Below are positions 8,740-47,128 of a DNA stretch of 64,000 nt, one piece after another; the stretch's first letter is position 1; every line of letters starts with the position of its first letter. The notes under the pieces are model-generated. The model saw only the letters and a list, made by a program, of their open reading frames with translations. It was not told the DNA's origin and did not search any database. The DNA is from Halolamina sediminis (GTDB lineage Archaea; Halobacteriota; Halobacteria; Halobacteriales; Haloferacaceae). Both the position numbers and the translations under genes were made by a program. The DNA lies in contig NZ_CVUA01000001.1 in assembly GCF_001282785.1 (NCBI RefSeq), positions 2,542,001-2,606,000 of the forward strand, given 5' to 3'.

Positions 8740-9207
8740 ATGTCCGACAAACAGTTCACGCTTTTCGAACTCCACTTCCACGACGGCTTCCAACTCGGCC
8801 CGCGCAGCCTCGACCTCGACGACGGCACGGCCTCGAACGACGCGATCGACGAGTCGACGACCGACGCGGTCGAGGAGTCGAGCGAGGGTTCCGGACCGAG
8901 CGTGCTCGGCCCGCTGCTGGGACTGGGCGTCCTCGCCGGGGTCGCCTACGCCGTCCGGAAGCTGCTTTCCGACATCGACCCCGAGGGGCTGGACGCGCTC
9001 GACGACGTCGAGGAGGAGGTACAGGAGGCCACCGAGGATCTCGAGGCCGACGAGGACTCGGTGCCGATCGAGATCACCAGTCCAGACGAGGAAGAGAGCA
9101 GCGGGCTGCTCCGACTGCTCGCCGGCGCCGCCGTGTTGCTGGTGCTGTTCGCGCTCGGCGCGAAGAAGCTGCTGGGCGGGAGCGAGGAGATCGTCGTCGA
9201 GGAGTAA
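8740..9207 (+). CDS. Acidic two-span membrane protein, unknown
   Basis: A 155-residue protein: a polar N-terminus MSDKQFTLFELHFHDGFQLG, an acidic linker, one span (VLGPLLGLGVLAGVAYAV), a long acidic segment rich in Glu/Asp, and a second span (LLAGAAVLLVLFALGAKKLL) with an acidic tail. I do not recognise a family beyond similar haloarchaeal hypotheticals. It is divergent from the M42 peptidase gene and precedes the insertion-sequence remnant that opens the accessory tract. Confidence 0.72.
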   Translation: MSDKQFTLFELHFHDGFQLGPRSLDLDDGTASNDAIDESTTDAVEESSEGSGPSVLGPLLGLGVLAGVAYAVRKLLSDIDPEGLDALDDVEEEVQEATEDLEADEDSVPIEITSPDEEESSGLLRLLAGAAVLLVLFALGAKKLLGGSEEIVVEE

Positions 9208-15000: not shown

Positions 15001-15987
15001 CTACTCGTTATTGTTGTACCGCTCAATGATGATCAATACGTGCTGGAGTGTCACCTGTGCGCCGCCAGTATTTGGAACGGCTTCGCCGGAGTTGTAGTAC
15101 TCAATCGCGGTCAATAATTCGGCGAAACTGACCTCGCCGTCAGTGCCAGTGAGAGCGTCGATTACGTCCTTTGTTTCGGCAGTAACGGTCACCTCGACGG
15201 CGGTAGTTCCTCCATTCTGATCGGCCGTCTCGATGACGACCTCGAACGTGCCTGAACCCGCCTCAGTCCCTTCAACGGTGAACGTTGAAGTCGCCTCGGC
15301 GTCGTTCATCAGCGTGCCAATTTGGGCATTTTCCGGCGATACTGCTAGGAACGATGGCGGCGACAGCGAGACGGTCACGTCCCTGGCTGTCGCATCACCG
15401 ATATTGCGGACGGTTATCTCGACCTGCTTTGTCGAACCTGCCGCGAGCGTCTCGGGGACTGCCGCGGGGTTAACCACGGTGACCTTCGGTGGTGTCGTTG
15501 TCTCGTCGGCGACGCGTTCGACCGTCTCCGCAGTTTGCTCGAAGGTCTGTGTGGATTGAGAAACCGATTGGATCGTCTCACTTACAGATGAGGATGTTTG
15601 TTTCGCGGCAAGCGCGGTTCCCGCGCTGGCGAGAAGCATTCCCTGCTCCAATGCGAGCGCCGACTCGAGTTCGACCCGGGATCTGAGTTCAGACTGTGAT
15701 TCCTCGTCAAGGACAGCCGTCGCAAGCAGGTGTCGAGCCTTCTCAGTGAGAATCTGTTCGTCGGGGTCAGCTGTGGCAACTCGTTGGTCCAGTTCGTTGA
15801 TAACGGAGATCGCGACCTCCCAGTTTTCGTTTGCGAACGCCTGCTCCAGATCGGCCAACAATTCGGATAGTGAGCGTTCCTGAAGCGTTGACCGGAGTGT
15901 GGCTGCTGCCTCCGCAGCGCGTTCGATTTCCTGTGTGTGCGTGGCGGCCTGCAACTCTCGTACTTGTGATTCGATGGGTCGGGACAT
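15001..15987 (-). CDS. CARDB-like protein with C-terminal dockerin-like pair
   Basis: A 328-residue acidic protein. Residues 1-140 are helical and coiled-coil-like; around 145-165 is a Ser/Thr-rich stretch; then an immunoglobulin-like CARDB/NEW3-type domain (STKQVEITVRNIGDATARDV) of about 100 residues; the end is a dockerin-like pair, VSFAELLTAIEYYNSGEAVP and VTLQHVLIIIERYNNNE. It has no evident signal peptide. Its ATG overlaps the stop of the 1003-aa upstream gene (TAATG), so the two are made together. A role in binding that secreted partner is inferred from this coupling only. Confidence 0.72.
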   Translation of the reverse strand: MSRPIESQVRELQAATHTQEIERAAEAAATLRSTLQERSLSELLADLEQAFANENWEVAISVINELDQRVATADPDEQILTEKARHLLATAVLDEESQSELRSRVELESALALEQGMLLASAGTALAAKQTSSSVSETIQSVSQSTQTFEQTAETVERVADETTTPPKVTVVNPAAVPETLAAGSTKQVEITVRNIGDATARDVTVSLSPPSFLAVSPENAQIGTLMNDAEATSTFTVEGTEAGSGTFEVVIETADQNGGTTAVEVTVTAETKDVIDALTGTDGEVSFAELLTAIEYYNSGEAVPNTGGAQVTLQHVLIIIERYNNNE

Positions 15988-18900
15988 TAGGATGACCCCC
16001 CGTTAGTGTAGGACTGAACAGGCGCGTTATAGTACCGAACTCGGGCGTCGGCATCGCCAAGGATGACCTGGCCGATGGCAAGGAGCGCGTTTTGCCGAAG
16101 GGTCTTGACACCGAGCCAGCCCGCAGTTCCAGCACCGACCTGTGCAATGCTCCCCGCTATGTCTTGGATGATTGTGAGCGCGATGTTTCCGATGCCGAGC
16201 GTAATATCGACCCAGTCACCTTTCTGGATAGCGTGGATCAGCTTGGCTACTTCCTGTACGAAATTCCCCGGGACGAGGTTCGTCATCGTCTCGATTTCTT
16301 CGACCGTACTCTCGGCGATAGTGGAGGCGCGAGAATCCGCTTCGGATGCGGCTTGTTGTGCTTCTTCTGTCGATCCGAGTAGACCGCGTTCGGTGAGAGA
16401 AGAGGCATCCAACTCGTCGAAGAGGGCCTCCAGACCACCTTGAAGGCCGACTGTACCGGAACTGAGCCCCGGAGGGACGGTCTTGGCATATCCGTACCCG
16501 TCAGTGGTCGAGATGAGTTCTAGGCCCGCTGTACCGGACAGGACGCCAGCGCGGATCCCGTCGGCGAACTCATCGAGGGTCGCGTCAACCGCTTGGTCGA
16601 CTTCCGCCTCGACGTTGCTCGCCAGCTCAGTCTCACTCGGGACTGAGTCCCCCGCCGTAGCTTCGTCGTAGGCGGCTTGTGTTTCGGTCTCAACCGTATC
16701 TCGCAGTTCCGTCGATTGCTCATTCGAGAGGGTGTCAGTCCGCATCAGATCCTTGAGGGTATCTCCAATCTTGGACAGAGCGGTATCAAGCCAGTCTTTC
16801 AACCGGCGTGCACTGACCGGCGAGGTACTGGGGAGGTTATCGGCGATGCTGTCGGCAACCTTGTTAAGTGGGATAACTGCGAGAGCAAGATCGATCGCCA
16901 GTGAGGCGGTGACACGAGCAGTCTTCCGAGCGACGTTGTAGGCTGTCGTATCCGACGACTCGTGAATCGCTGACGGACTCGCAAGCACCTCGAGGGTCCG
17001 CTGGATGACCGTCTCTGCAGCTGTGAGACGGTCAACCACTTGTTTCGTTGTCGTCGCTTCAATCGAACCGCTGTTCGCGGCTGATTCGAGTCCGGCAATG
17101 TGGGCCTTCGCGTAGGCTTCGTCACCATCGACGGTCGTCCCATTGACGGTCCGGTTCTGGAGTAGTGGATCGGCTGCGAGCGAGTCGATGTGACCTGCAA
17201 TCGTGAGCTTTTCGTCCGCGCTCAGCGCGACAGTGACGGTCTTCGAAGCTGTGGCCGAGCGATCGGTCTCGTCGTAGACAGTCAGTGATATTTCTTGATC
17301 GCCAAGGTCTGAATAGGTCCACACCGCGGTCTTTCCTGTGGCATCGATCGTCCCGTCACCTGTGAAGTCCCACTCATAGCGAGCGATCGTGGTATCGGGG
17401 TCACTGCTTGCGGAGGCGTCGACGCTGATTTCGCCCCCGACAGCCGGCTCTGGTGGCGATACCTCGAATGCGGCCGACGGTGACTCGCCCGAGACGCTCA
17501 CCGTTCGCGTTGCCTGAGCCGTGGCGCCGTCACTATCCGTGACCGTGAGACTAACTGAGTAGTCGCCGAGTGAGCCGTAACTGTGGGTGACCGTCTTCCC
17601 AGTCATGTTCGACCCGTCGCCGAAGGACCAATCATAGGTCGCGATCGAACCGTCCGAATCCGACGAGCCTGATGCGTCGAAGGTGATCGATTCCCCCACC
17701 GATGGTTGGGAGGGAGAGAAATCAAACGAAGCCGTCGGTGCTGCGTTAAGCGTCGTGTCTCCATCGATGGCCAACACGTAGCCTGGAGCGTTGTAGGTCG
17801 ATGTTACCGTGTGGACTCGCCCAGCCGTGACGGCCGGCGGCGCACCTGTGTCTTCGCCCGTATTGTATGACCAGAGTTGCGTACCCGAGTCCGCATCGAA
17901 GGCGTAGTATACCCCGTTACTCGATGCGTAGACGACCCCGTCGGCGACGAGGCCACCGTGTGCGGTACTGCCGGCGAGGTTTCGGGACCACTGTACCTCT
18001 CCAGTCGCAGTGTTGACGGCGTACAGATCGTCAAAGCCCACGTACAGCGTCCCGTCGGCAACGCCCATCGGCCCCATAGCGTTGCTCCCGCTCCCGAGCG
18101 TAGTATGCCAGACTGACGACCCATCACTTGCGTTTCGGGCAAACAACTCTCCCACGCCGCCGAGGTAGACGTACCCATTCGCGACGACAGGGGCAGCACG
18201 TCCCGGATTATAGGTGAAGTCCCACGTCTTCGACCCATCACTCACCGACAGCGCCGAGACTCGATCAGGATTCCGTGCAGGAGTATCAAGGAGGTATACT
18301 AACCCGTTGGCGACCGCAGGGGGATAGCCCCCTACCGGACTGACGTCCGTCTGCTCCCAAGTGACCGATCCGCTATTCGTATCGATGGCGACGAGTTTGT
18401 TAGAGCCGATGTACACCGTGCCGTCGGCGACAGTGGGCGCAACCGAGTATCGTGGCACATAGTACGGAATCTTCGTTCGCCAGCGTCGCTCGCCAGTAGC
18501 TGTATCAAGCGCCACCAGATACCCTGCGTTTACATCTTGGATATTCTCGCCGATGTACAAGGTATCGTTCACGATTGCGGGCGTCCCGGAAGATGGATCA
18601 GCCAGGGATTTCTTCCATACTAGATCTCCGTCGGCATTGACTGCGTAGAGCGTACCTGCGGAGTTGAAGAAGACAGTGTCATCATACTCTGCGGCGTCGA
18701 GGTCTGTTTGGAAGTCGTCGTTGCAGCCGCCAGAGTTCACCGGTTCGACTAGCAGCGGCTTCTCTCGAACATCAGGAGGGGAGTACAGAAAATACGGGAA
18801 GTTAAAGCCAGAGTCTTCATCTTTCTCGATTAGCACCGGGCCGATTCCACCGGTACTGCTCTGTGTAGAGTTGAAGCCTCTAGCAGTGGCTGGTGAGGCG

Positions 18901-18998
18901 GCAAGTGTGCTGAGAATACCCACGGAAAATGACTTCAAGATTGTTCGGCGGTCAGGAGTTTTCCAGGTCGTCTCCAGACTCGTTCGTTGATCATCCAT
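15987..18998 (-). CDS. Tat-exported PQQ beta-propeller/PKD protein with helical C-domain
   Basis: A 1003-residue secreted protein. An N-terminal Tat-like signal (TPDRRTILKSFSVGILSTLA) is followed by a PQQ-type beta-propeller with repeats such as TGERRWRTKIPYYVPRYSVA and DGSKTWDFTYNP (about residues 85-415). Two PKD domains follow, each with the DxSGSSDSDGSIATYDWSFG-type motif (about 420-590). The last ~400 residues are helical with two hydrophobic segments near the end and match nothing I know. It heads a two-gene operon with the CARDB-like gene. PQQ propellers without a dehydrogenase often serve as scaffolds. The upstream 290 bp are AT-rich. Confidence 0.8.
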   Translation of the reverse strand: MDDQRTSLETTWKTPDRRTILKSFSVGILSTLAASPATARGFNSTQSSTGGIGPVLIEKDEDSGFNFPYFLYSPPDVREKPLLVEPVNSGGCNDDFQTDLDAAEYDDTVFFNSAGTLYAVNADGDLVWKKSLADPSSGTPAIVNDTLYIGENIQDVNAGYLVALDTATGERRWRTKIPYYVPRYSVAPTVADGTVYIGSNKLVAIDTNSGSVTWEQTDVSPVGGYPPAVANGLVYLLDTPARNPDRVSALSVSDGSKTWDFTYNPGRAAPVVANGYVYLGGVGELFARNASDGSSVWHTTLGSGSNAMGPMGVADGTLYVGFDDLYAVNTATGEVQWSRNLAGSTAHGGLVADGVVYASSNGVYYAFDADSGTQLWSYNTGEDTGAPPAVTAGRVHTVTSTYNAPGYVLAIDGDTTLNAAPTASFDFSPSQPSVGESITFDASGSSDSDGSIATYDWSFGDGSNMTGKTVTHSYGSLGDYSVSLTVTDSDGATAQATRTVSVSGESPSAAFEVSPPEPAVGGEISVDASASSDPDTTIARYEWDFTGDGTIDATGKTAVWTYSDLGDQEISLTVYDETDRSATASKTVTVALSADEKLTIAGHIDSLAADPLLQNRTVNGTTVDGDEAYAKAHIAGLESAANSGSIEATTTKQVVDRLTAAETVIQRTLEVLASPSAIHESSDTTAYNVARKTARVTASLAIDLALAVIPLNKVADSIADNLPSTSPVSARRLKDWLDTALSKIGDTLKDLMRTDTLSNEQSTELRDTVETETQAAYDEATAGDSVPSETELASNVEAEVDQAVDATLDEFADGIRAGVLSGTAGLELISTTDGYGYAKTVPPGLSSGTVGLQGGLEALFDELDASSLTERGLLGSTEEAQQAASEADSRASTIAESTVEEIETMTNLVPGNFVQEVAKLIHAIQKGDWVDITLGIGNIALTIIQDIAGSIAQVGAGTAGWLGVKTLRQNALLAIGQVILGDADARVRYYNAPVQSYTNGGSS

Positions 18999-19021
18999 GC
19001 ACTGTGTTCACAAAGCCCATG

Positions 19022-19246
19022 GAAACATAGTTTTGTGTTTATATGTGTGAAAAGCATATAAAATGAATAATTATCAACTCAGCTTCTACGGATATCTATC
19101 AAGGTGACACAGTAGCTTAGCGCGATTCTAGATATTCATAAACAGTGGCCTATTCTTGAATAGCTAGCTATCCTACCTATCTATCAATTGTCCCAATATT
19201 TATTTGTAAAATAGTGGGCTATTACTAGATAGAATCTGTGGCCAAA
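19022..19246. other. AT-rich intergenic region between the secreted-protein operon and parA
   Basis: Clearly lower GC than its surroundings. It includes the 12-bp perfect palindrome ATAGCTAGCTAT at about 19160 and an AATAG...CTATT inverted pair near 19211-19223. The word ATAG recurs and leads into the tandem iterons at 19247. The promoter of the 1003-aa gene must lie at the left side. No gene is seen. Confidence 0.5.
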
Positions 19247-19291
19247 ATAGCTCGGATAGTAATGATAGCACGAATAGCCCAAATAGCCCGT
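19247..19291 (+). repeat. Five tandem 9-bp ATAG iterons abutting parA
   Basis: ATAGCTCGG, ATAGTAATG, ATAGCACGA, ATAGCCCAA, ATAGCCCGT: five copies with an exact 9-bp period, ending at the base before the ATG at 19292. Such iterons before parA are typical of partition-site or autoregulatory ParB/ParA binding arrays. The period of nine also keeps frame with the downstream gene: from a GTG at 19238 it would read K-IAR-IVM-IAR-IAQ-IAR, so a coding origin for the periodicity cannot be excluded. Confidence 0.65.
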
Positions 19292-20165
19292 ATGAAGGAA
19301 AGTGACACAGAGCCGCGCGCGGTGTCGGTGGTATGCTCAAAGGTGGAGTCGGGAAGTCCACTCTGTCGGTTAATCTCTCCCGGCAGCTCGCGGCCGACGG
19401 CTACAACGTGCTGCTCATCGACCTTGACCCGAACGGCCACGCCAGCGTCGGGTTGGGCGTTGAGGAGATCTACCACGACTCCGAAGAGACCATCGGCGAC
19501 GTGTTCTTCGACAGCGCCGATCCGCAGTCGGTGATTCACAACACCGACTACGAGTTCGATATGATCCCGTCAAGTGATGACCTCGAGCAGGTAGAGCGCG
19601 AGATCGTGGTTGGCGACGTGTTCCAGCCGTCGGCACTCTTGAAGCGAGAGGTTGTCGAGCCGCTCCTCGGTTACGAGTACGACTACATCGTGAGCGATTC
19701 GCCGGCCTATCGTTCCCGACTCCCTGATAACGCCTTGTCGCGACGGGGAACCTCATCCTCCCGCTCGCGCCTGCTAACGAGGCGATGTCTGGACTGGAGC
19801 CCACCATCGAACGCTAGATCGGCTCGCTCCGACAGCATATGGACGTCGACGTCCTCGCACTCATCCCGAATATGCTGAATGAGCGGATCGACCAGCAAAC
19901 CCAAGACCGACAACTCCTGGAACGGCTGAACAGCCACAAGTCGCTGCAGGACCGGATCCCTAACTTCGCCCGGATCACCGACTGGGGGGCCGTCGATGCT
20001 GGCGACTACTCACCGTCACCGGGGATCAGGGACCGCAATTCGATCACGAAAGCGTACGGCAAGCGGATGCCACTCCTCGACTACGACCCTGCGTGCGACC
20101 AGATCAAGTGCTTCGAAGAGCTTGCCTACATCGTCGAGACGGGGCAGGTGGTGCGCCATGGCTGA
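19292..20165 (+). pseudogene. parA: ParA/Soj-type partition ATPase, frameshifted
   Basis: The pieces together make a full ParA: MKESDTEPRAVSVV (from 19292), then, one frame on, MLKGGVGKSTLSVNLSRQLA with the deviant Walker A, VLLIDLDPNGHASVGLG (Walker A' partner region) and YDYIVSDSPAYRSRLPDNAL. Near 19735 the frame changes again to ATGNLILPLAPANEAMSGLE, with an internal TAG at 19815-19817, and ends with PNFARITDWGAVDAGDYSPS. Two frameshifts and one nonsense codon make it inactive as read. ParA proteins segregate plasmids or chromosomes. With the iterons it marks an integrated plasmid-like segment. The next gene starts inside its end. Confidence 0.85.
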
Positions 20166-20508
20166 CGATGACCCATTCACCGATCTCGGTGACACCTTGG
20201 ACGATAACGGCAATGACGGCGACGACGAGGCTGAACTGGGAGCCGAACCAGACGCTCCTAACGTTCATGACCCGATGGCCACGCCAGCATTCTCCTACGA
20301 CGAGGCCAAGCAGCGGCCGGTCTACGCCCGAGAAGAAACTATCGACCACTTCGATGCATGGATGCGCTACGAGCTCGAAGGCAAACTGAGCGAGCGTGGG
20401 TATCAGGACATCTACGTCCGAGAGTTAACTGACACACTCCTCCGAACCGTCGTCGAGGAGGAGCTAGTCGAGAAAGTGGCGAAACGGTTTGAAGGGGCTC
20501 GAGAGTAG
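20158..20508 (+). CDS. ParA-linked acidic protein, unknown
   Basis: A 116-residue protein that starts inside the end of the parA pseudogene (8-bp overlap). The first 45 residues are strongly acidic (DDPFTDLGDTLDDNGNDGDD); the rest is helical, with YAREETIDHFDAWMRYELEG and YVRELTDTLLRTVVEEELVE. By position it should be the partition partner (ParB-like role or a regulator), but I see no DNA-binding motif. The gene is intact although parA is broken. I place similar genes behind parA on haloarchaeal plasmids from memory, without certainty. Confidence 0.68.
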   Translation: MADDDPFTDLGDTLDDNGNDGDDEAELGAEPDAPNVHDPMATPAFSYDEAKQRPVYAREETIDHFDAWMRYELEGKLSERGYQDIYVRELTDTLLRTVVEEELVEKVAKRFEGARE

Positions 20509-20564
20509 CACGGCGTCGTTCTCGCCGAAACTACTACTCTTGCTTAGCGCGGCAGTCAAAGTAA

Positions 20565-20684
20565 ATGCCCAACCCCATCAAGTCCACCGGTGCCGACGCC
20601 GTCGCGCTCCAAGTCACTCGTGAGGCTCGGGTTGCCGAGTTCGTCGACGAACAGGACGGGATGCGGCCCGACTGGCACCGGTGA
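20565..20684 (+). CDS. 39-aa hypothetical peptide
   Basis: An ATG at 20565 opens a 39-residue frame (MPNPIKSTGADAVALQVTRE ... QDGMRPDWHR) with haloarchaeal codon use. Its stop TGA overlaps the GTG start of the following gene (GTGA), which supports coupled translation. I do not recognise it. Confidence 0.5.
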   Translation: MPNPIKSTGADAVALQVTREARVAEFVDEQDGMRPDWHR

Positions 20685-22938: not shown

Positions 22939-22956
22939 GTCAACGCCAATGTTGAC
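22939..22956. promoter_or_regulatory. Inverted repeat, possible autoregulatory operator
   Basis: GTCAAC-GCCAAT-GTTGAC is a perfect 6-bp inverted repeat with a 6-bp spacer, ending 6 bp before the ATG of the antitoxin-like gene at 22963. Position and symmetry suit a dimeric repressor site. No binding partner is proven. Confidence 0.4.
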
Positions 22957-22962
22957 GTAACG

Positions 22963-23356
22963 ATGGCAACAGCTGATGAGCAGATTCGGGTAAGTGGCCG
23001 GATGAAGCGCATCCTCGACCGGCACCGCGCCGAAGGCGAGGGCTACAACGACGTGCTTGAGCGCGTCCTCGAGCGTGGCCTACGTTTACGCGGACCTCCG
23101 CAGCGGAGCACCAGAGCAGGCTGTCGAAGAGGCGCTGGACGGCGCCGACGGCCGCGCCGAGCTCTTCGATCTATACCACGAGTGGGACGTGACGCCATCG
23201 GCGATGAACACGAACTCCGGGCGAGGCGTGGTGAAGCGACTGTGTAGCGACCTCAACGGCGACGATGATTTTGTAGGGAGCTTGAGTACAGCAGATCGAA
23301 TCACGACTACCTCGAACCCCACGGTGCCCGGCGCGGGGTCGGGAAGGTGCTGGTGA
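22963..23356 (+). pseudogene. Antitoxin-like 5' end fused out of frame to an unknown 3' part
   Basis: The first ~44 residues from ATG 22963 (MATADEQIRVSGRMKRILDR ... YNDVLERVLER) resemble the start of a small haloarchaeal antitoxin-type family (I recall it as DUF7557). From about 23075 the coding look shifts one frame: VAYVYADLRSGAPEQAVEEA, ELFDLYHEWDVTPSAMNTNS, until about 23290. No toxin gene follows. The simplest reading is a deletion that joined two genes, leaving a broken antitoxin. If the first frame is used, it makes a 94-residue protein with an arginine-rich tail, which looks unnatural. Confidence 0.5.
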
Positions 23357-23558
23357 AACAGCGTGGATTGGAGTGACAGTATCTTAGAAGGGGAGTGCCC
23401 GAAAGGGTGGACAATCTCCCACACCAGCGCCGCCGTAGCAGCAATGCAAGGGCAATACTACGGTCAAGGCGCCATTCTGAGACTATGATTAAGAAGGAAT
23501 CAATCTTCTGCTTACAAAAGGGAAAAGCGGGTGGCAGAACCGGTATAACGGTTAGTCG

Positions 23559-23795: not shown

Positions 23796-24072
23796 AGTGT
23801 ACTGACATTCCCCACGAATAGGTTAGATTTTGTGGATCGAGAAGTACACTCGAGACCGCGATGCAGCTGGGCATCCAGCTCCATCCACTGGACTCTTACT
23901 TTTGGATGCCACATGAATTCTCGATACGGTCACATGCTGTCGGTCCAGCGTCCACAACTAGGAAGAGAAAATGAAGTTTGATTAAATAAGGGTCAATTCT
24001 GCTCTGAACGGTGAGGCTATCGTCTCGAATGGTCCGTAATCCTGATTGGGGCGAGTCCGTTCTTTCCGGCAA

Positions 24073-25477: not shown

Positions 25478-28036
25478 TTACTCTCGGCGACCGGCCAGCA
25501 GCGCGGCGGCGAGCAGGGCGACCAGCGCGACAGCGACGCCGAAGCCGGGCGTCGTCGTCGTGGTGGTCTCCGTGTCAGGCTCCTCGGTCTCCGTATCCGG
25601 AGCCTCGGTGTCCGTCTCCGGAGCCTCGGTGGCCGTGGCCGTCGCGGTTGCCGTCGCCGTCTCAGTAGCCGTGGCGGTTGCCGTCGCAGTCGCGGTCTCC
25701 GTACCGACCTGTTCGACGACCTCGCCGTCGACCTGCGTCAGCTCACTGCCGACTTTGCGCACGCTCACAGTGAACGTGTCGCCAGCGGACTGATCGCTGA
25801 AGTCGAACGTCGCTTCGAAGTTACCGTCAGCACCAACGGTGACGGTGTCCGTGTGGTAGAAGCCCGGCTGCGTGTCAACCGAGCGCACACGGATCGTCAG
25901 TTCCGAACCGGGTGCCTGGTTCGTCTGGCCTGCGATCGTCTGGCTCTCAGCAGCCTCGACCTGAACAGGCTCGCTTGCGAACGTCGTCGACGTCGACTCG
26001 ACATCGAAGGTCGCACTTACGGACTCGTGGTCGTCATCGCTCTCGGAGCCCAGGAGACGGTCGTCAGCAACCGTGAAGGTTGCCTCGAACTCGTCACCAT
26101 CTGCGACCTCGACATCGTCGCCGTTACGCTCGAAGTCAGCGCTCTCGAGGTCGACGAGGACGTAGTAGGTCCCGTCGCCGCTGATCACGTCGATCGCGTT
26201 AAGCGAACTCGTGACGTTCAGCGTTTTCGGATCACGGTTCTGGATCTGGTTCGTCTGCTCAACCGAGAGGCCGAGACTGCCCGATTCGATGGCATCCGCA
26301 AAGCCACCGTCGGCGTCGACCAGACCCTCGATCCCCGTCGCGGAGATCTCGTGGATCGCGTAGTCACCCATCGTGATGGAGCTGTCCTGCGTGACAGCAC
26401 CAGCGTCGACGAGTTCCGAGACGTCGGCGGCGGTAACCGCGCCGTCCTCGTTCGCGTCGAGGTCAGCGTTACCGGGCGCCGTCCACATGGTCATTTCGTC
26501 AGTCGAACGCTCGCCGAGGTACAGGGTACTCAGCTCCTGCGGCTCGTCAAGCGTCTGGGATGCAGAGCCTGCCGTACTCACAGCAAGCGTGTAGTCACCC
26601 TGCGCTGCGATCGCGCTCAGCGTCGACTGACCGTTCAGCTCCGCGGTGTCGTCCTCACCAGCAGCGCTGACGATCGCACTCTCGTCCGCGTCAGCGTTGC
26701 CCGCGAGGTAGGTGTTGAACTCAACCGTCACCTGGCCATCATCGTCGCCGTCTTCGAAGGAGACGTTCGCCTGGTAGCCGTCCTCGTTCTGGTTACCAAT
26801 GACGAGCGTCCCACTCGTGGCAGCGCCGGTGAGATCAACCGTGATCTCTGCGACGCTCCCCTGCGGCGTGTTCAGCGAGCCGGTGTGGTTGAAGGAAGCG
26901 GCACCTTCGCTGGTGTCGCTAACGTCGATGTCGGCCGAAGCCGTCGCATCCGTGTCAGCGACAGCGAAGTCGAAGCTGTAGTTGCCAGCATCAACCTCAG
27001 CGAAGTTGACATCGTACTCGGTGCCATCGCCGACGTTCTCGACAACAACACCGTCATCCGAAGCTTCGCCGTCGTCGTCGACGTCAGTGTTTTCGACGTC
27101 GAAGATGTCGGCGAGCTCATCGTCGTCAAGGTCGTCAGAGGTCACGACAACGTTGAAGTCCGAACCGCGGTTGTCGGACTCGAAGTCAATCGTCGTGTCG
27201 CCAGCTGCACCGATGTTGCCCACTTCGTCAGCACCGAACGACGCGGAGAACTCCTGGTCGATGACGTCGAAGGAGAGGTCAGCGGAGCCCGCCCCGTCGT
27301 TCGTGATGTAGTAGCTACCCGTGTCGAGGCCGCCCGTGTCGATGACGATCAGGCCGTTGTCCTGAACGTTCAGGGTTCGCTCGGCCGTGTTGGAGTCATC
27401 AGGCGAGCCACTGCGAAGGACGTACTGGTCCGAGCCAGTGTCGCCCGCCGTGTCGAAGACGACGTTCTCACCGGAGAAGACGATCGCACCGTCGGACGTC
27501 TCCTCAGGCTCGTCGTCTTCCGGCGGCTCCGGCGTCGGCGTCGGCGTGCCGTCGTCAGAACCGGTGGTTTCGATGGTCGTGGAACCGATATCCGCTTCAG
27601 TATCGCCACTGTAAGCGGTGCCGGTAATTTCGTACTGCGCGTTGGCAGTGTCCTCAGTCGTGACAGTGTACGTGATCACGACCTCCGCGTTAGCGGCGAC
27701 CTCGCCGAGGGAGACCACAAGGCCATCCTCAGTCGGCTGGTTGAGAACGGGAGTGACTTCCTCACCGTCAACCTCAACCGTCGCTGCGCTTGCACTCTGG
27801 ACAGCCGGACTAAAGGCTTCTTCAACCGTCAGTCGGCCGCCATCGCCGTCCATCTGCACGGTAGTTGTAACCGTTACCTCTCCGCCAGGACTCACGGACG
27901 AGTCACTGACAGTACGCTCGGCGTCGGCAACTCCTGCAACCGCTGTACCCGCAAACGCTGCGGACACCGCGATCACCGAAGTCACCATCAGCGCAGCCAT
28001 CAGTAGGCTACGCATCTTCTTAGTTTTGTCTGTCAT
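25478..28036 (-). CDS. csg: S-layer-type surface glycoprotein with PGF-CTERM anchor
   Basis: An 852-residue exported protein. The signal KKMRSLLMAALMVTSVIAVS is the haloarchaeal surface-glycoprotein type. The body has repeated acidic beta domains and a stretch with DANEDGAVTAADVSELVDAG that reads as a calcium-binding dockerin-like site. Near the C-terminus is a Thr-rich stalk with TATATATATATE-type repeats and TEAPETDTEAPDTE, the place for O-glycosylation, followed by PGFGVAVALVALLAAALLAG and basic residues: a PGF-CTERM signal processed by archaeosortase ArtA and lipid-anchored. Length and layout match major S-layer glycoproteins. It lies 27 bp downstream of a second surface glycoprotein gene and shares its promoter. 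Confidence 0.88.
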   Translation of the reverse strand: MTDKTKKMRSLLMAALMVTSVIAVSAAFAGTAVAGVADAERTVSDSSVSPGGEVTVTTTVQMDGDGGRLTVEEAFSPAVQSASAATVEVDGEEVTPVLNQPTEDGLVVSLGEVAANAEVVITYTVTTEDTANAQYEITGTAYSGDTEADIGSTTIETTGSDDGTPTPTPEPPEDDEPEETSDGAIVFSGENVVFDTAGDTGSDQYVLRSGSPDDSNTAERTLNVQDNGLIVIDTGGLDTGSYYITNDGAGSADLSFDVIDQEFSASFGADEVGNIGAAGDTTIDFESDNRGSDFNVVVTSDDLDDDELADIFDVENTDVDDDGEASDDGVVVENVGDGTEYDVNFAEVDAGNYSFDFAVADTDATASADIDVSDTSEGAASFNHTGSLNTPQGSVAEITVDLTGAATSGTLVIGNQNEDGYQANVSFEDGDDDGQVTVEFNTYLAGNADADESAIVSAAGEDDTAELNGQSTLSAIAAQGDYTLAVSTAGSASQTLDEPQELSTLYLGERSTDEMTMWTAPGNADLDANEDGAVTAADVSELVDAGAVTQDSSITMGDYAIHEISATGIEGLVDADGGFADAIESGSLGLSVEQTNQIQNRDPKTLNVTSSLNAIDVISGDGTYYVLVDLESADFERNGDDVEVADGDEFEATFTVADDRLLGSESDDDHESVSATFDVESTSTTFASEPVQVEAAESQTIAGQTNQAPGSELTIRVRSVDTQPGFYHTDTVTVGADGNFEATFDFSDQSAGDTFTVSVRKVGSELTQVDGEVVEQVGTETATATATATATETATATATATATEAPETDTEAPDTETEEPDTETTTTTTPGFGVAVALVALLAAALLAGRRE

Positions 28037-45943: not shown

Positions 45944-47128
45944 ATGAAGCTGGCAATGATCGGGTTCGGTCAGGCCGGCGGGAAGATCGTCGACAAGTTC
46001 GTCGGCTACGACGCCGAGAACGGCTCGAACATCGTTCGGGCCGCCGTCGCGGTCAACACGGCCAAGGCCGACCTGATGGGGCTCGACAACATCCCGGAGA
46101 GCCAACGGGTGCTCATCGGGCAGTCCCGGGTGAAGGGCCACGGCGTCGGCGCCGACAACGAACTCGGCGCCGAGATCGCCGAGGAGGACATGGACGAGGT
46201 GCAGGGGGCCATCGACTCCATCCCGGTTCACGAGGTCGACGCGTTCCTCGTGGTCGCCGGCCTCGGCGGCGGGACGGGCAGCGGCGGCGCGCCCGTGATC
46301 TCCAAACACCTCAAGCGAATCTACACCGAGCCCGTCTACGGGCTGGGGATCCTGCCGGGCTCGGACGAGGGGGGTATCTACACCCTCAACGCCGCGCGAT
46401 CGTTCCAGACGTTCGTTCGTGAGGTGGACAACCTCATGGTGTTCGACAACGACGCGTGGCGGAAGACCGGGGAGTCCGTCCAGGGCGGCTACGACCAGAT
46501 CAACGAGGAGATCGTCCAGCGCTTCGGGCTGCTGTTCGGCGCGGGTGAGGTCGAGCAGGGCGGGGAAGTCGCCGAAAGCGTCGTCGACTCTTCGGAGATC
46601 ATCAACACGCTCTCCGGCGGCGGCGTCTCCACCGTCGGCTACGCCAGCGAGGAGGTCGAGAACGCCGGCGGCGGCAACGGCGGCCTGCTCTCCCGGCTCA
46701 CCGGCGGCGAGGAGGAAGACGAGCTCGACACCGCCCACACGACCAACCGGATCACCAGCCTCGTCCGGAAGGCGGCGCTCGGACGGCTCACGCTGCCCTG
46801 CGAGATCGAGGGTGCCGAGCGCGCGCTGCTGGTGATGGCCGGCCCGCCGAAGTACCTCAACCGCAAAGGCATCGAGCGCGGGCGGAAGTGGCTCGAGGAG
46901 CAGACCGGCTCGATGGAGGTCCGCGGTGGCGACTACCCCGTTCGGGGGGCGAACTTCGTCGCCAGCGTGATCCTGCTGTCGGGCGTGAACAACGTCCCGC
47001 GGATCAAGGAGCTCCAGCAGGTCGCGATCGAGGCCCAGGAGAACATCGAGGACATCCAGGAGGAGAGCGAGGAGAACCTCGACGAGCTCGTCAACGACGA
47101 CGACGACGAACTCGAGTCGCTGTTCTGA
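45944..47128 (+). CDS. cetZ1: CetZ tubulin-like GTPase
   Basis: A 394-residue cytoskeletal GTPase. The N-terminus MKLAMIGFGQAGGKIVDKFV and the tubulin signature VAGLGGGTGSGGAPVISKHL (from about residue 104) identify a CetZ rather than FtsZ; the C-terminal acidic tail ENLDELVNDDDDELESLF is typical of CetZ1. CetZ1 controls cell shape and rod formation needed for motility in Haloferax. Length agrees with CetZ1. The following cofC gene is 13 bp away, a conserved neighbourhood. Confidence 0.93.
   Translation: MKLAMIGFGQAGGKIVDKFVGYDAENGSNIVRAAVAVNTAKADLMGLDNIPESQRVLIGQSRVKGHGVGADNELGAEIAEEDMDEVQGAIDSIPVHEVDAFLVVAGLGGGTGSGGAPVISKHLKRIYTEPVYGLGILPGSDEGGIYTLNAARSFQTFVREVDNLMVFDNDAWRKTGESVQGGYDQINEEIVQRFGLLFGAGEVEQGGEVAESVVDSSEIINTLSGGGVSTVGYASEEVENAGGGNGGLLSRLTGGEEEDELDTAHTTNRITSLVRKAALGRLTLPCEIEGAERALLVMAGPPKYLNRKGIERGRKWLEEQTGSMEVRGGDYPVRGANFVASVILLSGVNNVPRIKELQQVAIEAQENIEDIQEESEENLDELVNDDDDELESLF

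Follow-up and report, generated by a model that had tools for sequence, protein, structure and literature searches.

A 9-bp repeat array beside a ParA-ORF2 gene pair of Halolamina sediminis, a probable part of a haloarchaeal plasmid partition site

The ATAG array and its gene pair

A 64,000-nucleotide stretch of the Halolamina sediminis genome (assembly GCF_001282785.1, contig NZ_CVUA01000001.1, positions 2,542,001 to 2,606,000; hereafter the window) carries an array of ATAG boxes, repeated every 9 bp, at the 5' end of a broken gene for a ParA-type ATPase, which is followed by an intact small gene termed ORF2 (open reading frame 2; Table 1). Such repeats form a DNA site that is linked to ParA-ORF2 gene pairs in other haloarchaea. 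We consider it probable that they are part of the double-stranded DNA site of a plasmid partition cassette, in which they would serve as a centromere bound by ORF2 and as an operator.

Table 1. Features of the par remnant, in window coordinates
Feature	Position	Strand	Basis
Five ATAG-N5 units in strict 9-bp phase	19247..19291	+	Positions read; shuffles; same array at parA of close relatives
Two extra ATAG boxes (19211, 19229), same 9-bp phase as the main five	19211..19232	+	Positions equal modulo 9; alignment
Upstream inverted array: CTAT at 19096, 19150, 19168 and 19177, single 9-bp phase	19096..19180	-	Matching CTAT arrays in relatives
ATAGCTAGCTAT palindrome with opposed ATAG/CTAT boxes	19160..19171	.	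Similar opposed boxes in relatives
parA pseudogene, type Ib-like ParA ATPase	19234..20165	+	Pfam AAA_31, 7e-23; lesions by alignment to relatives
ORF2, intact, 116 aa, overlaps the parA end; proposed centromere-binding adaptor	20158..20508	+	
Stretch 3' of ORF2; relatives have further ATAG/CTAT boxes here, none left in the window	20509..20620	.	

ATAG stands at 19247, 19256, 19265, 19274 and 19283, and the last unit abuts ATG 19292. A first-pass annotation, made from the letters alone, had described five exact 9-bp iterons that run from GTG 19238 to the parA start codon. The spacing is indeed exactly 9 bp, but only the tetramer is exact and the 5-base spacers differ; 19238 is a GTG but not the first repeat; and although the array does end at an ATG, the relatives start 58 bp upstream and the window gene is broken. 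Together with the two extra boxes, the array comprises seven ATAG boxes in one phase with two positions vacant, and alignment shows that ATAG 19229 corresponds to a box that relatives have ahead of their start codon. A palindrome of the kind reported upstream is also present, and opposed boxes occur in relatives as well. A pattern of four ATAG copies has two overlapping matches in the window versus none in 100 dinucleotide shuffles, and the three-copy pattern is unique to the array within the 2.84-Mb contig, which rules out a chance tandem repeat.

The start ATG of the relatives reads ATC at 19234 in the window. The gene has also lost five bases after 19295 and one base each near 19329 and 19733, and it has a TAG at 19815-19817; the remaining ParA fragments are 80% and 82% identical to the ParA of a relative, L012. 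The intact ParA of L012 matches AAA_31 (7.3e-29, from residue 30) and the PHROG entry 'ParA-like partition protein' (1.7e-39), and it has a KGGVGKST motif and no N-terminal DNA-binding domain. ATG 19292 opens the frame MKESDTEPRAVSV and may have been the start in the window lineage before later damage, because MKESDTEPRAVSV resembles the N-terminus of other ParAs. The 5-bp deletion shifts the frame of the array in this lineage (or the array lies outside the gene, if ATG 19292 is the start); despite the shift, every box keeps its 9-bp phase.

A scan of bacterial and archaeal genomes returned 38 close relatives (L003-L040, 72-80% identity), many of them on plasmids. These relatives have the same ATAG array at the parA 5' end. 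Counts below refer to the 31 non-redundant loci among the first 37 (L003-L039; duplicates L014, L018, L025, L032, L033 and L039 excluded), and L040, which has a truncated parA and no ATG seen upstream, was left out of most of them. The bacterial loci L052-L056, among the 54 loci of the ParA scan, did not enter the repeat statistics. In the 31 relatives and the window, the 100 bp that directly precede the MLKGG codon hold a mean of 5.4 ATAG boxes per sequence. Mean CTAT counts are 3.3-3.5 in each of the two 100-bp bins between -300 and -100, and the two boxes rise again 1200-1300 bp downstream, after ORF2 (about 2.2 for ATAG and 1.9 for CTAT); in most remaining 100-bp bins either box has a mean of 0.6 or less. 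The site of the relatives thus lies on both sides of the operon: upstream the boxes are inverted, at the start they are direct, and after ORF2 the two orientations are mixed. Plasmid pNRC100 of Halobacterium salinarum carries the whole ATAG/CTAT site at ParA VNG_RS12540, which is followed by VNG_RS12535.

All 31 relatives have an in-frame ATG ahead of the array, and the array reads as Asn/Asp-Ser-x. Codon use in this N-terminal stretch departs from that in the gene body for Asn (AAT:AAC 111:5 versus 113:220), Asp (GAT:GAC 74:13 versus 382:623), Ser (AGY:TCN 156:48 versus 138:321), Arg (AGR:CGN 26:4 versus 8:529) and Ile (ATA:ATC/ATT 34:5 versus 9:446), with Fisher p values of 6e-18 or less that are nominal since the rows are related. 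Codon choice is bent toward ATAG and shows that it is the DNA word that the coding arrays conserve.

This bears on the proposal that the repeat is a peptide at the ParA N-terminus (IAR, or N/D-S-x in relatives), with the DNA regularity as a by-product. The preceding ATG suggests that a peptide is probably made, but the rare codons ATA, AGA and AGG keep ATAG while the residues vary between N and D or S and R, inverted copies lie upstream and further copies after ORF2, and distant ParA-ORF2 pairs carry their arrays in non-coding DNA. The IAR frame is moreover not the conserved one: related parA genes have ATAG iterons, and an IAR peptide preserved through silent changes is not seen. The first-pass annotation had left an IAR-like tripeptide and a DNA partition site or operator side by side. 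The relatives' use of the other frame, N/D-S-x, and the non-coding arrays of distant pairs rule out the IAR reading, and a peptide origin of the repeat in any frame is scarcely credible. The DNA alternative is favored, as relatives keep the ATAG word and its 9-bp phase where the frame differs; protein binding is a predicted property of this DNA.

A 9-bp pitch shared by divergent ParA-ORF2 pairs

The pattern of four ATAG copies was found in 48 of 391 genomes of the class, as 69 separate arrays, and for at least 46 of these, spread over 34 genomes, the ParA matches listed include one no more than 2.5 kb away. Twelve distant array-bearing loci have ParA proteins 36-52% identical to that of L012, and their arrays lie upstream of parA in non-coding DNA; over the distant ParA-ORF2 pairs as a whole, ParA identity ranges from 36 to 54%. 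An ORF2 homologue directly follows parA in 12/12 of them (E 4e-6 to 1e-17).

The spacing was examined at 40 ParA-ORF2 loci through the distances at which a 4-mer recurs within the 450 bp before parA, compared with shuffles (300 bp were used for the window, and 462 bp for L041, ending a few bases inside its likely start). Recurrences at 9, 18, 27 and 36 bp numbered 575, 582, 440 and 344, versus about 76-84 in shuffles, which corresponds to z scores of 51, 48, 39 and 24. All other distances from 5 to 40 bp gave z of 8.3 or less. The 8.3 was obtained at 14 bp, and a 7-bp pitch is unsupported (z of -1.3 at 7 bp, against 51 at 9 bp). Divergent ParA-ORF2 pairs share the rhythm but not the word: as read by eye, words vary by subfamily and include ATAG-N5 in the window type, ATAGGTGCA-like words in Natrialbaceae, CACCTNAG or TACCTNAG types, GATTATNNN in Haloferax and TGTRCAA types.

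Tested one by one, 56 of 60 loci showed the upstream 9-bp signal at p<0.01. This level was also reached by every locus picked blind to repeats, namely 12/12 plasmid loci found through ORF2 and 10/10 found through ParA with ORF2, with L041, L044 and L241 the weakest. Two of 17 annotated plasmid stretches were excluded from tests that require a parA start, L236 since its annotated ParA does not adjoin the matched ORF2 and L242 since no ParA is annotated at the match; L057-L059 were read separately.

Because the first set of control regions was contaminated, with several touching a par site or overlapping coding sequence, a codon-insensitive distance profile was adopted. It gave a 9-bp signal at parA (-450..+150) in 54/57 loci, as compared with 3/41 at +2.6 to +3.2 kb and 4/35 at -2.6 to -2.0 kb. 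Within the window, the three best of 637 stretches by this score start at 19001, 19101 and 19201. Codon periodicity was discarded as a cause, since in coding stretches every multiple of 3 is about equally strong, whereas in the upstream DNA only multiples of 9 stand out. The next-best scores in the window, about 5 and half of that at the par site, fall at 8801-9200 and 46001-46300 and probably reflect coding repeats.

Could the repeats instead be replication-origin iterons for Orc1/Cdc6 or a Rep protein, which parA adjoins by chance? An orc1/cdc6 gene does lie in the fetched stretches of L057, L058 and L243, and one array (L063) is near an ORF judged by eye to be Orc1-like. Such genes, however, occur in only 3 of 15 annotated ParA-ORF2 stretches, whereas ORF2 follows ParA at 12/12 distant array loci and the repeat word tracks ORF2 (see below). 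An origin is therefore very improbable.

More ATAG arrays with 9-bp spacing occur far from parA (L105-L112; L095, 1085-1150; L103, 1516-1560). Several share a contig with a ParA-ORF2 pair, such as contig C6 of genome G191 with three array places, and these distant arrays may be secondary centromere sites. At L069, L070 and L092, four-copy ATAG arrays have no ParA motif within the fetched 3 kb; the ORFs nearby resemble CARF/Csa3-type regulators by their motif.

ORF2, the candidate reader of the array

ORF2 was sought from 25 bases before to 15 bases after the parA stop, and in 31/31 non-redundant close relatives it starts in this interval. At its N-terminus the product has a conserved DPF.DL motif, which an acidic linker of variable length connects to a C-terminal helical domain. 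Folded alone with AlphaFold2 from 29 sequences, the C-terminal domain reached a mean predicted local distance difference test (pLDDT) score of 81.7, with an extended segment followed by helices 19-39, 47-60 and 64-75; the full-length fold was of low confidence (pLDDT 57). A ribbon-helix-helix fold is possible for this model but unproven. The DNA-binding domain of TraM was among the fold matches, at a Z of 2.0 that is too weak to use.

No Pfam family matched ORF2 at the thresholds used, and this small partner is therefore not, in the strict sense, the ParB that the first-pass annotation had named. ORF2 profiles against PDB sequences returned chance rows only, with no SegB chain for profiles A2 and A3 at E up to 10 (a profile search, with no direct SegB comparison made). 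Phage records gave no match to ORF2, and a ParA scan of viral contigs gave five pattern matches and no relative. In all, 99 of 72,556 plasmid records matched when the ORF2 of one distant locus served as query; the organisms listed among these matches are haloarchaeal, and most of the matches listed are annotated as 'hypothetical protein' or not at all.

Similarity of the repeat word between loci correlates with that of ORF2 (Spearman 0.48) and with that of ParA (0.38) over 38 loci. The partial correlations are 0.37 for ORF2 (Mantel p 0.001) and 0.21 for ParA (p 0.015). Word similarity tracks ORF2 more than ParA, which modestly suggests that ORF2 is the protein that reads the array.

A proposed partition site and its relation to known systems

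The boxes surround the promoter region and 5' end of parA, and an inverted set lies upstream of them. This arrangement would suit a purely transcriptional operator, through which ORF2 or ParA autoregulates the parA-ORF2 operon while the centromere lies elsewhere, and operator and centromere can differ: ParG of TP228 has two targets, parH and an operator that precedes parFG (PMC7308502). The site is, however, oversized for an operator, having many boxes, inverted sets and a further set beyond ORF2, some 1.2-1.4 kb away from the parA start, and extra arrays occur elsewhere on the same contigs. We regard an operator alone as unlikely, and favor a partition site that combines centromere and operator.

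By analogy with delta/omega and ParF-ParG, which are systems of similar anatomy, a mechanism is proposed where the C-terminal domain of ORF2 would bind the boxes in register and side by side, one unit per 9 bp, and the ORF2-loaded array would constitute the centromere, or partition complex. Occupancy of the array, which covers the parA promoter and start, would repress and tune the operon. The N-terminus of ORF2, with its DPF.DL motif, could contact the ParA ATPase on the nucleoid, by which the plasmid would be moved, and changes of the word could set specificity between coexisting plasmids. In the subfamily of the window the site extends into parA, so that the same DNA encodes the Asn/Asp-Ser-x repeats.

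Several observations weigh against this proposal. Four of the 60 loci (L003, L038, L103 and L049) miss the upstream 9-bp test; the array of L103 sits 1.9 kb away, and the partner gene of L049 looks different. In the first, contaminated control a signal was scored for 11 of the 27 regions taken from upstream of other genes, and the counts are not independent, as many loci are related. Among the 69 arrays, 23 have none of the listed ParA matches within 2.5 kb; they include some that look like unrelated coding repeats, arrays elsewhere on ParA-bearing contigs and unexplained cases. The correlation between word and ORF2 is modest and may share a base-composition effect. The C-terminal model of ORF2 has no significant PDB or viral fold match (best VIA row, Z 2.5), and a DNA-binding fold is unproven for this reason. 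In the window itself parA is dead and the downstream box set is gone.

As a separate observation, L049 shows GTAC-containing repeats at about 12-13 bp upstream of parA in place of a 9-bp rhythm.

The window copy, in which parA is dead, ORF2 is intact and the site is kept in part, is a decayed remnant, probably from a plasmid. An integrated plasmid, as previously suggested, is a likely origin because many relatives are plasmid-borne, the G+C content is low and the gene is in decay, although no insert ends were found. Short DNA matches at 22939-23366 and 23822-23962 to plasmid genes annotated as a VapB-family antitoxin, a site-specific integrase and an IS6 transposase are in keeping with a decayed mobile region. 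On either side of the par remnant lie genes for a large surface protein that has DUF7827 and ends in a PGF-CTERM tail (25478-28036) and for a protein with PQQ repeats and a PKD domain (15987-18998). A second ParA is encoded on the chromosome of the same genome (L002, G000:C1 at about 1838559; 37% identity to L012 ParA). It has its own ORF2-like gene of 110 aa and a weak upstream 9-bp signal (1 in 300 shuffles as high), and is possibly a chromosomal version of the system.

The combination of a ParA, a small partner and an iteron site is known. With type Ib-like plasmid partition systems the cassette shares a ParA that lacks an N-terminal helix-turn-helix, a small partner gene coupled to parA immediately downstream, and an array of short direct repeats at the operon's promoter. 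Plasmid pSM19035 pairs the ParA protein delta with a very small partner, omega, much as in ParA-ORF2. In PMC4498918, its parS sites are described as runs of 7-10 adjoining short iterons, located at several points of the plasmid and overlapping promoters, and omega as a small ribbon-helix-helix ParB whose unstructured N-terminus contacts ParA. These iterons (the parS heptads) are 7 bp long, compared with 9 bp in the haloarchaeal site, which can also enter the parA coding sequence; and unlike omega, ORF2 has no sequence match to a solved structure and its ribbon-helix-helix fold is unproven.

The ParF-ParG-parH system of TP228 likewise consists of a ParA-type ATPase, a small partner and a centromere of tetramer boxes. 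ParG is dimeric, with a flexible N-terminal tail and a separate repressor role, and parH contains degenerate tetramer boxes with AT-rich spacers (PMC7308502). The haloarchaeal site differs in that its unit is a 4-base box with a 5-base spacer and in that it occupies both strands and both flanks of the operon. The exact pitch of parH is 8 bp.

SegAB, from Sulfolobus and other archaea, resembles the cassette in that the gene for a ParA-type ATPase overlaps the next one, which encodes a small DNA-binding protein, and in that sites lie upstream of both (PMC5120986). SegB, however, is a chromosomal ribbon-helix-helix protein with imperfect palindromes as sites (PMC9178275), whereas the haloarchaeal sites are 9-bp direct-repeat arrays that include opposed ATAG/CTAT pairs and in which 9 bp is the dominant rhythm.

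The Soj/ParA genes of Halobacterium pNRC100 and pNRC200 belong to the same family as the window cassette, VNG_RS12540 of pNRC100 included. Expression of soj has been studied in cdrS mutants, and the available part of that report (PMC7439475) mentions the ATPases and no site or partner. Searches of open-licence papers listed no description of a haloarchaeal partition site, and a 2016 review counted among the open questions what the centromeres of archaeal chromosomes and plasmids are (PMC5120986). What is new here is the 9-bp pitch, an ORF2 adaptor that lacks a family model and a subfamily whose site is protein-coding.

On balance we lean towards a new class of plasmid centromere in haloarchaea, with a fixed 9-bp pitch and a free word, in which an ORF2 adaptor family would co-diversify with the word to give plasmid-specific addresses and the centromere of one widespread subfamily would lie inside parA and be coding as well. 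If this is correct, it would provide a candidate centromere and adaptor for haloarchaeal megaplasmids, pNRC100 included, and a 9-bp pitch beside a ParA-ORF2 pair would be a rule by which centromeres could be found computationally. The use of different words in the same geometry suggests how megaplasmids that share a cell might avoid cross-talk, and the dual-coding subfamily would be a clear case where a DNA-binding site dictates the codons of a protein.
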